This document shows, in pieces, positions 7,233-20,420 of a stretch of DNA of 53,162 nt. This DNA comes from Geobacteraceae bacterium (lineage in GTDB: Bacteria > Desulfobacterota > Desulfuromonadia > Desulfuromonadales > BM103). Location: the NCBI GenBank assembly GCA_024640545.1, contig JAHEEU010000001.1:1-53162 (forward strand). The letters run 5' to 3'. Position 1 is the first letter of the stretch, and every line of letters begins with the position of its first letter. The translations under genes were made by a program, and so were the position numbers. Below the pieces are notes generated by a model. It saw only the letters and a list, made by a program, of their open reading frames with translations, was not told the origin of the DNA and did not search any database.

Positions 7233-7314
7233 AACCATCGAAGCGCAAGGCGCGAAAATTCACCAGCCTCATCTCGCTCCCCGCTTCGCGCTTCCCACTG
7301 CGCGCTTCCGAGCC

Positions 7315-8052
7315 ATGATCTGCCTACTTGCCGCCGTCGCTGAAGAAACCGACCTGATCAGAGAAGCCCTCGAGGAATGCATGCCGCGGTCCGTGAACGG
7401 CATCACCCTGTTGAACGGCAGACTCGCCGGCCATGACGTCTGCCTGGCGCACAGCGGCATCGGCAAGGCGGCGGCCGCGGCGACGACCGTCACTCTCTTG
7501 AGCAACTGCCAACCGCAGGCTCTCTGGCTATTCGGCTGCGGGGGTGCCTACCCGGGGTCCGGATTGTCGATTGGTGATCTGGCCCTTGCTGAGGAAGAGA
7601 TCTTCGGCGATGAGGGGGTTGCCACCAGCAAAGGCTTCCGCGACCTGTCGGCGTTGCGCCTCCCCATGCTTCCGGGCCATGGGGAGCGCTATAATCGCTG
7701 GCCGGTCGACCCGGCTCTGTATGCCTGGGCGCGGCCGCTTTTCAAGGAGCAGGCGCAGAACAGCGCAGCAAAGTTGGGCTGCGGCCCATTTGTGACGGTT
7801 TCCACCTGCACGGGGACAACCGCTGATGCCCTCGAGATCGGCAGGCGCACCGGCGGGATCTGCGAGAACATGGAAGGGGCGGCGGTCGCCATGGCCTGCC
7901 TGCAGATGGGCGTGCCACTGCTCGAGATTCGCGGCATTTCCAACCGGGTCGAGGATTACGACCCGACCCGCTGGGACCTTGCCGCCGGAATGACGGCGGC
8001 ACAAAATGCCGTACTGACCATTCTCCCGCTCTGGCCAGGGACAAGAGCATGA
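7315..8052 (+). CDS. mqnB: Futalosine hydrolase
   Basis: Cleaves futalosine to dehypoxanthinylfutalosine and hypoxanthine in the menaquinone pathway that replaces the Men route. The 245-residue protein belongs to the nucleoside phosphorylase (MTA/SAH nucleosidase-like) fold. Visible are an N-terminal ICLLAAVAEETDLI, HSGIGKAAAAATT (phosphate/ribose loop), GCGGAYPGSGLSIGDL, and a C-terminal GICENMEGAAVAMACLQMGVP with the ribose-binding Glu of the ENMEG motif, followed by EIRGISNRVEDYD. It overlaps mqnD by four bases (ATGA), so the two are translationally coupled. The Shine-Dalgarno is weak. Confidence 0.92.
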   Translation: MICLLAAVAEETDLIREALEECMPRSVNGITLLNGRLAGHDVCLAHSGIGKAAAAATTVTLLSNCQPQALWLFGCGGAYPGSGLSIGDLALAEEEIFGDEGVATSKGFRDLSALRLPMLPGHGERYNRWPVDPALYAWARPLFKEQAQNSAAKLGCGPFVTVSTCTGTTADALEIGRRTGGICENMEGAAVAMACLQMGVPLLEIRGISNRVEDYDPTRWDLAAGMTAAQNAVLTILPLWPGTRA

Positions 8053-8885
8053 TCAAACCCTTAACCCTCGGCTACTCACCCTGCCCGAACGACACCTTTA
8101 TCTTTTACGCGCTGACCCACGGGAAAGTCGCGATGCCCGGGTACCGGTTCACAGAGCGCCTGGAGGATGTGGAGACGCTCAACCAGTTGGCCCTTTCGGC
8201 TCAGCTCGATCTGACCAAGATCTCATACCATGCTCTCGGCCACCTGCGCGAGGAGTATGCCTTGCTGCGCAGCGGCGGCGCTCTCGGCCGCGGCTGCGGT
8301 CCCCTGGTCATTGCACCGACAGCAAGCGACATGCCGAGCCTGCGCGGCAAGCGCATTGCCGTCCCGGGTCGGTTGACCACCGCCAACCTGCTGCTGCAGC
8401 TTTACGGAACGGGCTACGACAACCTGCTGGTCATGCCGTTTGACCAGATCATGCCGGCCCTTAAAAGCGGCACGGCCAATGCCGGGGTCATCATCCACGA
8501 ATCGCGTTTCACCTACCGGCAGGCGGGTTTTCATGAAGTGCTCGACCTGGGGGCGTGGTGGGAAGCGGACAGCGGCCTGCCGATTCCCCTCGGCGGTATC
8601 CTTGCCCGGCGCGCACTTGGCACAGAGACGATACGCCTGGTCGACCGGGCCATCCGGCTCAGCCTGGAATATGCCCGGCAACACCCGCAGGAGCCACGCG
8701 CTTATATCAGGGGGCATGCGCAGGAGCTCGACGATCAGGTGACCGATGCGCACATCGCTCTCTACGTCAATGACTTCTCACTTGATCTCGGTGCCGAAGG
8801 GGTGACGGCTGTCGAAACGCTCCTGGCTCGCGCCGAAGCCCGTAGTCTGATCCCGAAGAGCAGAAAACCGCTGTTCCTCGATTGA
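8049..8885 (+). CDS. mqnD: 1,4-dihydroxy-6-naphthoate synthase
   Basis: Converts cyclic dehypoxanthinylfutalosine to 1,4-dihydroxy-6-naphthoate, the last ring-forming step of the futalosine pathway. The 278-residue protein starts LGYSPCPNDTFIFYALTHG, a clear MqnD signature, and has the periplasmic-binding-protein-like fold of the MqnA/MqnD family, with DLTKISYHALG and NAGVIIHESRFTY (conserved His) visible. Translation begins inside the mqnB stop codon. The remaining steps are encoded 32 kb away (mqnC, mqnE); mqnA is not in the window. Confidence 0.93.
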   Translation: MIKPLTLGYSPCPNDTFIFYALTHGKVAMPGYRFTERLEDVETLNQLALSAQLDLTKISYHALGHLREEYALLRSGGALGRGCGPLVIAPTASDMPSLRGKRIAVPGRLTTANLLLQLYGTGYDNLLVMPFDQIMPALKSGTANAGVIIHESRFTYRQAGFHEVLDLGAWWEADSGLPIPLGGILARRALGTETIRLVDRAIRLSLEYARQHPQEPRAYIRGHAQELDDQVTDAHIALYVNDFSLDLGAEGVTAVETLLARAEARSLIPKSRKPLFLD

Positions 8886-16883: not shown

Positions 16884-16959
<76 letters not shown>

Positions 16960-16969
16960 CCGGAAATAA

Positions 16970-17003
16970 AGCCCCCACGATACCGACCGTGGGGGCTTTT
17001 TCT
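16970..17003 (+). terminator. Terminator of tRNA-Phe
   Basis: 10-bp stem AGCCCCCACG/CGTGGGGGCT (16970-16979, 16988-16997) with an 8-base loop, followed by TTTTCTTT. A near-identical hairpin without the full T-run is at 20311-20338. Confidence 0.9.
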
Positions 17004-17022
17004 TTCGGACCTATAACCAAAC

Positions 17023-17302: not shown

Positions 17303-17331
17303 GCAAAAAAAAGCCCGGCAAAAAGCCGGGC
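17303..17331 (-). terminator. Terminator of the acidic microprotein gene
   Basis: Perfect 7-bp stem GCCCGGC/GCCGGGC (17313-17319, 17325-17331) with a 5-base loop; on the minus strand eight T follow. It is 35 bases after the stop codon at 17366 and shows that the small gene is a transcription unit of its own. Confidence 0.9.
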
Positions 17332-17365
17332 CTGAAATTGTATGATCGTTCTATCGAATCGATGA

Positions 17366-17503
17366 TCAATCGGCGCCATAGAGCCAGTCTTGGTCAGTTT
17401 CCCCAAGTGCAATCAGGTTGATATCTTCGTATCCGACGGTGTCCTGGACTTCAACTTCATTGAGACATCCGTCGATCCACAACTGCAGTGCTGCTTCACC
17501 CAT
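17366..17503 (-). CDS. Acidic 45-residue microprotein, putative LytTR target
   Basis: A 45-codon gene too short for usual ORF cut-offs. It begins MGEAALQLWIDG and ends DQDWLYGAD. It has 11 Asp/Glu, no Lys, Arg or His at all, one Cys (C13), two Trp (W9, W40) and two Tyr. No signal peptide or membrane segment. GGAGG lies eight bases before the ATG and a perfect terminator follows the stop, so it is well supported as a gene. No family was recognised. Its promoter region carries three 9-bp direct repeats at 20-bp period next to the lytR stop codon, so control by the neighbouring LytS/LytTR system is inferred. Possible roles include an inhibitor, an anti-factor or a precursor peptide; none can be shown. 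Confidence 0.75.
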   Translation of the reverse strand: MGEAALQLWIDGCLNEVEVQDTVGYEDINLIALGETDQDWLYGAD

Positions 17504-17565
17504 GTCTTGTTTCCTCCGCTCTTTTAGAGTTTTAACGCGTCCGTTGCTGACTCGTTGACGCTACC

Positions 17566-17571
17566 CTAATA
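17566..17571 (-). promoter_or_regulatory. -10 hexamer of the acidic microprotein gene
   Basis: Minus strand TATTAG. At the expected -35 position (17594-17589) stands CTGTTG, a poor match, as expected for an activator-dependent promoter. A GCCCAAAGGGC palindrome lies between (17577-17587). Confidence 0.45.
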
Positions 17572-17603
17572 GACACGCCCAAAGGGCACAACAGAATGTG
17601 CGC

Positions 17604-17652
17604 CGAGCGGTCAGATAAACTGCTAAGCGGTTGAATGGGGTGTTGAGCGGTT
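17604..17652 (-). promoter_or_regulatory. Triple direct repeat, putative LytTR-binding sites
   Basis: Minus strand AACCGCTCA (17652-17644), AACCGCTTA (17632-17624) and GACCGCTCG (17612-17604), spaced exactly 20 bp, so on one face of the helix. LytTR regulators are known to bind imperfect 9-bp direct repeats about two turns apart, with an ACxGTT-like core. The nearest copy ends about nine bases before the -35 position of the microprotein gene. The block begins right after the lytR stop codon. Confidence 0.6.
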
Positions 17653-17660
17653 CTCAGAGA

Positions 17661-18371
17661 TCAGAAACTGAGCAGGTCCTTAAGCCGCTTCAGATATCGG
17701 CGACTGACCGGCAAACGCCGACCGCTGCGGGTGCGGATCTCCGCCAGACCATGTTCGAGCAGCGTGATCTCATCAATCTGGTCTGGGTTGACCAGGTATT
17801 GCCGGTGGCAACGGGTCAATGAAGACCTTGCTTCCAGGATTTTCAGGGTCAGTTCCGTGTAGCTTTCTGTCCCGCCCCCGACCACGTGCACGCCGCTCAG
17901 GTCGGAGTGAACGTACTCGATCTGGTTCAGATCGACCAGACGAACCCGGTTGGCCGTGACACAGGGGATTCGGGTCAGCGGGTGCGTCTCAAAGCTCTGT
18001 TGGCTGCCACCTTCCAGAGCCCCCTTGATCTTGCGGACCGCCATTTCCAGGCGATCGGGCTCGACCGGCTTGAGGAGGTAGTCGAGGGTCTTTTCCTCAA
18101 AAGCTTTCAGGGCGTATTCGTCATACGCGGTCACGAAGATGACATATGGCATCCGCTCCTGATCGATCATGCCGAGCAGGTCGAAGCCACTCAGGACCGG
18201 CATGTTCACATCGAGGAAGATGACCTCAGGGTGATCACGGTTGATGGCCTTGATTGCCTCCATGGCGTTGGCGCAGGTGCCAAGCAGTTCGAACTCGCCG
18301 GTGTCGGCCAAGAGTGCGGCCATCTCGTCGCGTGCGTGCTGCTCATCATCGATAATCAGGGTCCTGATCAT
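17661..18371 (-). CDS. LytTR-family response regulator
   Basis: A 236-residue response regulator. The receiver domain (1-120) has D8/D9, the phosphoacceptor D54 in FLDVNMPVLSG and the switch lysine in DYLLKPVEP. The C-terminal LytTR DNA-binding domain (about 130-236) shows VRLVDLNQIEYVHSDLSGVHV, RCHRQYLVNPDQIDEI and the terminal RLPVSRRYLKRLKDLL. The ATG at 18371 overlaps the kinase stop codon (ATGA), so both are made together. It belongs to the LytR/AlgR/YehT group. A 45-residue gene with triple direct repeats in its promoter lies directly downstream and is the likely target. Confidence 0.92.
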   Translation of the reverse strand: MIRTLIIDDEQHARDEMAALLADTGEFELLGTCANAMEAIKAINRDHPEVIFLDVNMPVLSGFDLLGMIDQERMPYVIFVTAYDEYALKAFEEKTLDYLLKPVEPDRLEMAVRKIKGALEGGSQQSFETHPLTRIPCVTANRVRLVDLNQIEYVHSDLSGVHVVGGGTESYTELTLKILEARSSLTRCHRQYLVNPDQIDEITLLEHGLAEIRTRSGRRLPVSRRYLKRLKDLLSF

Positions 18372-20056
18372 GATCTTCCTCCCGATGGTGCGGGCAACCG
18401 GATGCTGACGCGCGTCCATTCACCCGGAGAGAACTCGATGTTGACTCCGTAAGTATCTCCGTACTGGTTTTTGAGCCGCTTATCGACGATACCCATGCCA
18501 AGGCCGCTGTCGTCGCTCGGCGCCTGGTAGGTTCCGGCGTCGTCCTCGACCTCGATGACCGCCAGGCCATTCTCCCTGCGCGCCCTGATGTAAATCGTCC
18601 CGGCACCGATGATCTCGGCAAGGCCATGCTTGATGGCGTTTTCGATGACCGGCTGCAGGGTGAAGGTCGGCATTACCAGCCCCAGTAGAGATTCGTCGAT
18701 TTCGAAATCGACGTTCAGACGATCGCCGAAACGGGCTTCCTCAATTTCAAGATAGGAGCGGACATGATCCAGTTCCTCGCCCAAAGTGGCCAGGTCACCT
18801 GAGCGCTTGAGGTTCTTGCGGAAGAAGTTCGAGAGGTGGCGCAGCAACTCCCGGGCCTTGTCCGGGTCGGTGCGGATCACGGCGATGATCGTGTTGAGGG
18901 TATTGAACAGGAAATGCGGATTGACCTGGGCCTGGATCAGTTTCAGCTCGGCCTGGACCAGCAGGTTCTTTTGTTCGTCGTAACTGGACCGCAGCAGCTG
19001 ATGGGAGAGCAGCGCGGCGAGGCCTTCGCCGAGGGAGCGATTCAGGTTGAGGAAGAGCTGGTAGCGCGGCTCGTAAAGCTTGATGACGCCGATCACTTCC
19101 TGGTCGCGTCGCAGAGGTACGGCCAGGGCCGAGCCGAGCGGGCAGTTGTCGGAGAGGGCGCACTGGTAGGGATCTTTCTTGCCGTCTGCGTAGATCACCC
19201 GGTTCTCCCGGATTGCCGCTTTGGTCTGCTCTGCTGCAATCGGAATCCCGGCCCGGTGGTGATCGTTGCCGATCCCCGAAAACGCCAGGATCTTCTCACG
19301 GTCGGTGATGCCGACAGCCCCGACCTTGGTCTCCCGTCGGATGATTTCCGCCATCTGCTGCGCGGTCTCCTGATTGAACCCCTTGCTGAGCAGGGCCAGC
19401 AACTGGTCGGCAATACTCAGGGCCTGGGCGGTGAACTTGGCCCCGACCTTGTCACGGCTCCCTTTCAGATCACGCAGAAGGCTCAGGAAAAGGGCACTGC
19501 CGGCGCCGTTGGCGAGGATCATCGGCAAGGCAATTTTCTTGACCAGGAGCAGGGCCTCGTCAAAAGGTCGCGAAAGGGCAAGGATGACCAGCATCTGCAA
19601 GACCTCGGCTGCCATGGTGGTAAAGAGGGCGACACCCGGGTTGAGAACCTTTCCCGCCTGCCCCCGCCTAACGAGGTGCAAGTGGACCAAGCCGCCCAGC
19701 AGCCCTTCCATTGGCGTGGAAATGCCGCTGGCGAACGCGGTCAATCCTCCCAAAGTATAACTGTGCAGGCCCGAGGTGAGGCCGACCGCCGTACCGAGGA
19801 AGGGGCCGCCGATCAGTCCGGCAAGAACGGCGCCGATGGCCCTGGTGTTGGCCTCGCCCCCCTCCAAGGAAAGGCCAAAGTAGGTGCCGGCGATGGAGAT
19901 TGAGGCAAAGATAAAATAGAGGAACAGCTTCTGGCGCTGGCCGAGGGGATCCTCCGCCAGGCGCACCATTGGCCTGAAGGCCGGCGACTTGCTGAACAGA
20001 TAGGCGACGACCAGGAAGAAAGCGAGATGTTGTAAAAGAATAAATGCCAGTTTCAT
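18368..20056 (-). CDS. LytS-type sensor histidine kinase
   Basis: A 562-residue membrane kinase. The N-terminal part (1-195) has about six hydrophobic segments of the 5TM-LYT sensor type (GLSLEGGEANTRAIGAVLAG, FLGTAVGLTSGLHSYTLGG). A GAF-like region follows (about 205-350, with CALSDNCPLGSALAVPL). The kinase core has QAQVNPHFLFNTLNTI with phosphoacceptor H381, an N box IENAIKHGLAE and a G box GLGMGIVDKRL. LytS/BtsS-type kinases sense small molecules or membrane state; the ligand here is unknown. The ATG at 20056 matches the family start, although no Shine-Dalgarno is seen. Paired with the LytTR regulator by a four-base overlap. Confidence 0.92.
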   Translation of the reverse strand: MKLAFILLQHLAFFLVVAYLFSKSPAFRPMVRLAEDPLGQRQKLFLYFIFASISIAGTYFGLSLEGGEANTRAIGAVLAGLIGGPFLGTAVGLTSGLHSYTLGGLTAFASGISTPMEGLLGGLVHLHLVRRGQAGKVLNPGVALFTTMAAEVLQMLVILALSRPFDEALLLVKKIALPMILANGAGSALFLSLLRDLKGSRDKVGAKFTAQALSIADQLLALLSKGFNQETAQQMAEIIRRETKVGAVGITDREKILAFSGIGNDHHRAGIPIAAEQTKAAIRENRVIYADGKKDPYQCALSDNCPLGSALAVPLRRDQEVIGVIKLYEPRYQLFLNLNRSLGEGLAALLSHQLLRSSYDEQKNLLVQAELKLIQAQVNPHFLFNTLNTIIAVIRTDPDKARELLRHLSNFFRKNLKRSGDLATLGEELDHVRSYLEIEEARFGDRLNVDFEIDESLLGLVMPTFTLQPVIENAIKHGLAEIIGAGTIYIRARRENGLAVIEVEDDAGTYQAPSDDSGLGMGIVDKRLKNQYGDTYGVNIEFSPGEWTRVSIRLPAPSGGRS

Positions 20057-20228: not shown

Positions 20229-20300
20229 GCCAGGGAATGTACGTTCCAACCAACCCTGAAGATCCTTCTGCCGGCAGTTCGATTCTCATCCTGGGCGCCA
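20229..20300 (+). pseudogene. Decayed tRNA-Phe copy
   Basis: The 3' half of tRNA-Phe and its downstream sequence are repeated here: 62 of 68 positions match between 16931-16998 and 20272-20339, including CCTGGGC, CCA context and the terminator. The anticodon region CTGAAGATCC is still recognisable. The T-stem (GGCAG against CTCAT) and anticodon stem no longer pair, and the D-arm is lost, so it cannot work as a tRNA. It marks the other end of the LytS/LytTR block. Confidence 0.75.
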
Positions 20301-20310
20301 CTGGAAATAA

Positions 20311-20338
20311 AGCCCCCACGATAACGACCGTGGGGGCT
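20311..20338 (+). terminator. Copied tRNA-Phe terminator hairpin
   Basis: 10-bp stem AGCCCCCACG/CGTGGGGGCT identical to that at 16970-16997, loop ATAACGAC. Only TTATGCTTTT follows, so termination would be weaker. On the minus strand it lies downstream of the glycerate kinase gene. Confidence 0.6.
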
Positions 20339-20420
20339 TATGCTTTTCACGTCAAAGGACATACAAGGCACAAATCTGACTGGCTAAAACTCACTGCCAG
20401 CGGCAGCGGGCCATGGCCGG

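Follow-up and report, generated by a model that had tools for sequence, protein, structure and literature searches.

A relative of the BtsS/BtsR two-component system, encoded in the 53,162-nucleotide stretch of a Geobacteraceae genome that we analysed (the window), appears from sequence comparison to have a 45-residue acidic microprotein as its only output in the genus (g1). The microprotein belongs to a family that, as judged from database and literature searches, is undescribed and is conserved in the order. We think it probable that the pair forms a one-output module in which the acidic peptide modulates some conserved enzyme or complex of the cytoplasm that serves carboxylate or central carbon metabolism.

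All elements of the module lie on the minus strand. The gene for the kinase (18368 to 20056, with its start at 20056) is followed by that for a response regulator with receiver and LytTR domains (17661 to 18371), and beyond it come three direct repeats (17603 to 17652; ACCGCTCA starting at 17651, ACCGCTTA at 17631 and ACCGCTCG at 17611), a probable −10 element, TATTAG (17566 to 17571), a Shine-Dalgarno sequence, GGAGGA (17510 to 17517), the microprotein gene of 45 codons (MGEAALQLWIDGCLNEVEVQDTVGYEDINLIALGETDQDWLYGAD; 17366 to 17503, with the ATG at 17503 and the stop codon ending at 17366) and an intrinsic terminator with a T-run (17311 to 17333). Most of this arrangement had been read in the initial annotation, and it was borne out. 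The three 9-bp repeats past the regulator gene keep an exact 20-bp period; a triple pattern of this kind with up to three mismatches is expected 0.02 times by chance in the window, where the match with zero mismatches is unique. No good −35 element was seen in the microprotein promoter, as had been noted, and the −10 element would place the predicted transcription start near 17559. The strong Shine-Dalgarno sequence and the terminator of the microprotein gene are both kept in the sister species (G001), in which the stretch TGTCTATTAGGGTAGCG of the −10 region is identical. The repeats are also conserved between the two species, with 20 of 21 positions identical in the repeat cores versus 14 of 27 in the spacers (P = 0.001). 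In several other members of the microprotein family, TATTCT or TAATCT lies ~35 nt past the last repeat.

LytS/LytTR systems serve in the control of transporters, in murein control and in peptide signalling. The pair in the window had been taken for an anonymous member of this class, but it can be named. The regulator scored 321.5 bits against the NCBIfam equivalog model for BtsR (NF008677), for which the cut-off is 246, and 107 bits against the LytR model; the kinase is BtsS-like, with 5TM-5TMR_LYT, GAF and His_kinase domains (Pfam), 49% identity to Escherichia coli BtsS and a conserved phospho-accepting His382. On these profile matches, the pair is a BtsS/BtsR relative, the regulator falling within the membership model. 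BtsR recognition motifs are of the ACC[G/A]CT[C/T]A type, and direct repeats of this type stand two turns apart before the microprotein gene. The E. coli btsT promoter, which we compared directly, carries TGCCGCTCA, GACCGCTTA and AACCACTCA at a 20/21-bp period, in the same layout.

BtsR was the single LytTR protein found in each of the two genomes of the genus (G000, which holds the window, and G001). The initial annotation had proposed that the usual transporter target is missing, and a PF02554 search agreed, finding no CstA/BtsT-type protein in either genome; because the window's own genome is 87.6% complete, the sister, at 99%, carries most of the weight for this absence. We scanned the genome for BtsR sites at a period of 20 and read the context of the 20 best-matching loci. 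Among these, the peptide promoter was the only intergenic site, all of the others lying inside open reading frames. At up to two mismatches, the two-repeat pattern did no better than its reversed control; a short degenerate repeat pattern, which gave only noise over the genome, was rejected.

Profile searches of Pfam, NCBIfam, PHROGs and the PDB returned no match for the microprotein, and its AlphaFold model was of low confidence (pLDDT 69, pTM 0.26), too weak for a fold search. A profile of the family, run against 136 genomes of the order, matched 23 copies, spread over 22 of them. No member occurred outside the order in a 395-genome sample of the phylum, and among 277 genomes of the class the sole matches were two weak, partial ones (G592 and G618), which lack the tail and were left uncounted. 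Pcar_3424 of Pelobacter carbinolicus, considered as a member, was set apart by its description as resembling the C termini of butanediol dehydrogenases (PMC3543383). In the literature, we found no paper describing the family and none joining BtsS with Geobacter.

Two findings that the initial annotation would have counted against its proposal did not turn up: the repeats are conserved, and homologues do lie beside LytTR genes elsewhere, with btsR immediately preceding the peptide gene in seven genomes spanning three families (G000, G001, G101, G102, G111, G114 and G116). BtsR is present in 17 of the 22 genomes that have the peptide versus 14 of the 114 others (P = 2e-9 for genomes that are not independent; P = 3e-5 per genus, where relatives are likewise not independent samples). 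Ten peptide genes have BtsR-type repeats 136 to 158 nt upstream, two or three in each of the nine besides that of the window, with the set in G102 degenerate and the weakest, and all 10 of these copies are in genomes with BtsR. The repeats precede the peptide gene even though btsR is 2.8 kb away (G028) or 15 kb away (G040, where one peptide gene has them). The order in G028 is btsS-btsR-site-cstA-hydroxyacid dehydrogenase-site-peptide, such that sites for a single BtsSR precede cstA as well as the peptide gene; the order in G116 is btsR-site-peptide-site-cstA. In both G028 and G074, a D-2-hydroxyacid dehydrogenase-like gene separates the peptide gene from BtsSR or cstA (at 7244 to 8236 in locus L070; in L082, it is the gene after btsR).

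The other 13 of the 23 copies have a −24/−12 sigma-54 promoter 76 to 119 nt upstream, with a GTATAC palindrome farther upstream in 10 of the 13, and the five peptide genomes without BtsR are all of this type. The proposal that the kinase and regulator exist mainly to switch on an orphan microprotein thus did not hold: the family is wider, and its sigma-54 promoters and BtsR-less genomes imply that the peptide does not serve BtsSR only and that its promoter has been rewired. In L083 and L124 to L130, the palindrome lies 56 to 80 nt upstream of the peptide's sigma-54 promoter, once per genome. A search with the combined GTATAC and sigma-54 pattern gave one match in each of seven genomes, at the peptide gene; as the pattern was drawn from peptide genes, this result shows the specificity of the pattern and not an activator with one target. 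Used as a regulon finder, the pattern pointed to no activator and to no regulon member besides the peptide gene.

The adjacency to BtsR and the co-occurrence with it could be read to mean that the module is self-contained, with the peptide acting back on BtsS or BtsR as their feedback partner, either an anti-kinase or a co-regulator; its acidity might favour contact with a DNA-binding protein. We consider this unlikely, because the peptide and its conserved tail are kept in the five BtsR-less genomes, including G053 and G039, which are estimated to be 100% complete, and because many BtsSR systems of the order lack the peptide (14 of the 31 genomes with BtsR). Since the peptide persists without BtsSR under sigma-54 control, its partner is probably something other than the switch.

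The microprotein is 82% identical between the window and the sister species, with a dN of 0.11 and a dS of 1.18, which supports the reading of the 45-codon frame as coding; by this measure, the peptide is real and under purifying selection (dN/dS, ~0.1). Family members are 39 to 49 residues long and follow the pattern MGEAAxxxW ... GxxDDxWKFGSD-stop. All 23 could be aligned over their full length; their C terminus is G-[SAT]-D-stop, the tail Trp is invariant, and their N termini are MGEAA or MGEPA in most members and MENA in a Geobacter-like group. The window protein has 11 acidic residues and no Lys, Arg or His, just as the initial annotation had counted; the sister protein carries one His and distant members have 0 to 5 Lys or Arg residues, and the absence of basic residues is therefore not a family trait. 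A short predicted transcript with its own strong terminator, under strong and specific regulation, might also be a small regulatory RNA in which the reading frame is incidental or secondary. Against this stand the dN/dS ratio, the conservation of the protein down to 24 to 45% identity with an exact C-terminal end, the Shine-Dalgarno sequences that precede the starts in inspected family members, and an Rfam search of the window in which the sole match was a tRNA, and we rate this reading as still less probable than a feedback partner.

E. coli BtsS binds pyruvate through R72, R99, C110 and S113 (PMC10653868). In the window kinase, R99 and C110 are both Ser, giving a pocket of R-S-S-S in which two of the four pyruvate contacts are lost, such that the signal may not be pyruvate. 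Among 33 kinases with a readable pocket, 26 keep all four residues and mostly stand before cstA or a TRAP-type transporter. Of the seven with a changed pocket, five directly precede a peptide gene and two (R-R-A-A) precede NfnAB-like genes; the association of pocket change with a downstream peptide gene (P = 9e-5) is only suggestive, because the BtsR tree, on which G101, G102, G111, G114 and G116 form one group and the window pair has its own branch, allows one or two origins. The changed-pocket kinases beside peptide genes have lost two to four of the E. coli residues, and the pockets of G114, G101, G102 and G111 are more diverged than that of the window. For G111 and its neighbours, two alignments assign one pocket position differently, but both show that the arginines are lost. 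As far as these residues tell, the window sensor may have changed its ligand, and the kinase is a BtsSR homologue that is a candidate pyruvate receptor at most.

Several further arrangements of BtsSR were seen in the order. L068 and L140 (G040 and G132) carry a third type, with pocket R-R-A-A followed by the NfnAB-like (ferredoxin:NADP oxidoreductase) genes. In many genomes of the order (L147 to L149, L152, L153 and similar loci), a BtsSR with an intact pyruvate pocket stands before an apparent TRAP-type solute-binding protein and not CstA, and BtsR repeats frequently lie in the interval. Around the module itself, the neighbours vary. Named by reading their sequences, they encode citrate lyase and a Na+-pumping oxaloacetate decarboxylase in the case of G111 and G114 and tricarboxylate transport and glycerate functions in that of G001.

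AgrCA/AgrD and ComDE/ComC are Gram-positive peptide systems with LytTR regulators. The window resembles them in having such a regulator beside a small gene, and the diverged ligand pocket of the kinase might likewise suggest that the peptide is an exported pheromone sensed by the adjoining kinase, as in AgrD/AgrC/AgrA or ComC/ComD/ComE. This is very improbable: the peptide has no leader, hydrophobic core or double glycine, no exporter or protease lies beside its gene in the window, the kinase belongs with BtsS in the 5TM-5TMR_LYT type and not with AgrC, and the peptide also occurs without any BtsSR. We give as little credence to a RiPP precursor with the conserved W-[KL]-[FY]-G-[SAT]-D tail as its modified core, since the conserved ends, variable middle and invariant tail Trp that recall such precursors come with no obvious maturase, protease or exporter adjoining the gene in the contexts inspected by eye and with neighbouring genes that vary between families.

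The module may have arrived as a unit. On the plus strand, a tRNA-Phe gene with its terminator (16884 to 17005; Rfam tRNA, 16884 to 16956) stands on one side and a partial copy of its 3′ half and terminator (20256 to 20346) on the other, so that a 91-nt direct repeat (16915 to 17005 and 20256 to 20346; 87% identity) brackets the kinase, regulator and microprotein genes. As flanks, the two copies resemble the termini of an inserted element; no integrase was seen at the module. In the sister species, 11 kb of other genes separate this tRNA-Phe from the module, and the other searched members of the bacterial family are without both BtsR and the peptide. This distribution fits joint acquisition of BtsSR and the peptide at a tRNA site.

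For the one-output module that we favour, we propose the following scheme. The membrane-bound BtsS-like kinase would sense an extracellular small carboxylate, which could be pyruvate or, since the pocket differs from that of E. coli, a related acid, and would phosphorylate BtsR. BtsR would then bind the three ACCGCTYA repeats beside the weak −35 region and recruit RNA polymerase, and the output would be a short, separately terminated mRNA for a soluble 45-residue acidic protein, whose MGEAAxxxW helix and GxxDDxWKFGSD-type tail most likely bind a conserved cytoplasmic partner. Because different lineages have set the same peptide under two unrelated kinds of specific control, we suspect that it matters when the peptide is made and that its partner is one that the order has in common. 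A bolder version, which we hold to be possible but somewhat short of an even chance, is that BtsS/BtsR has come to answer to a new acid outside the cell and has given up transporter control, making a mobile module with one microprotein, a metabolic modulator that is under sigma-54 control in relatives. If this is true, central carbon metabolism would have in the peptide a control factor that is new and specific to the order. A family of such small proteins gives a way into the carbon regulation of Geobacter-like and Desulfuromonas-like bacteria, among which is the cultured bacterium Malonomonas rubra, and the natural BtsS pockets, some of which have the pyruvate residues and some of which lack them, form a comparison set for ligand change in this receptor.

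Among known systems, the closest is BtsS/BtsR-btsT (YehU/YehT) of E. coli, which shares with the window the BtsR equivalog, the kinase domains, the phospho-accepting His and the triple ACCGCTYA-type repeats (PMC5552118, PMC10653868); its target is the pyruvate transporter BtsT, whereas the candidate target in the window is a 45-residue soluble peptide. LytS/LytR with LrgAB has the same LytS/LytTR architecture, but the window regulator fits the BtsR model far better than the LytR model (321 versus 107 bits) and there is no lrgAB downstream. AgrCA/AgrD and ComDE/ComC differ in their signal or leader, exporter and kinase type, and the peptide of the window is also found without the switch. YbdD/YjiX (PF04328), small proteins encoded beside CstA/BtsT, likewise give a small-protein gene beside a BtsR target, yjiX following btsT in E. 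coli, whereas the window family has no PF04328 match and the window gene is monocistronic.
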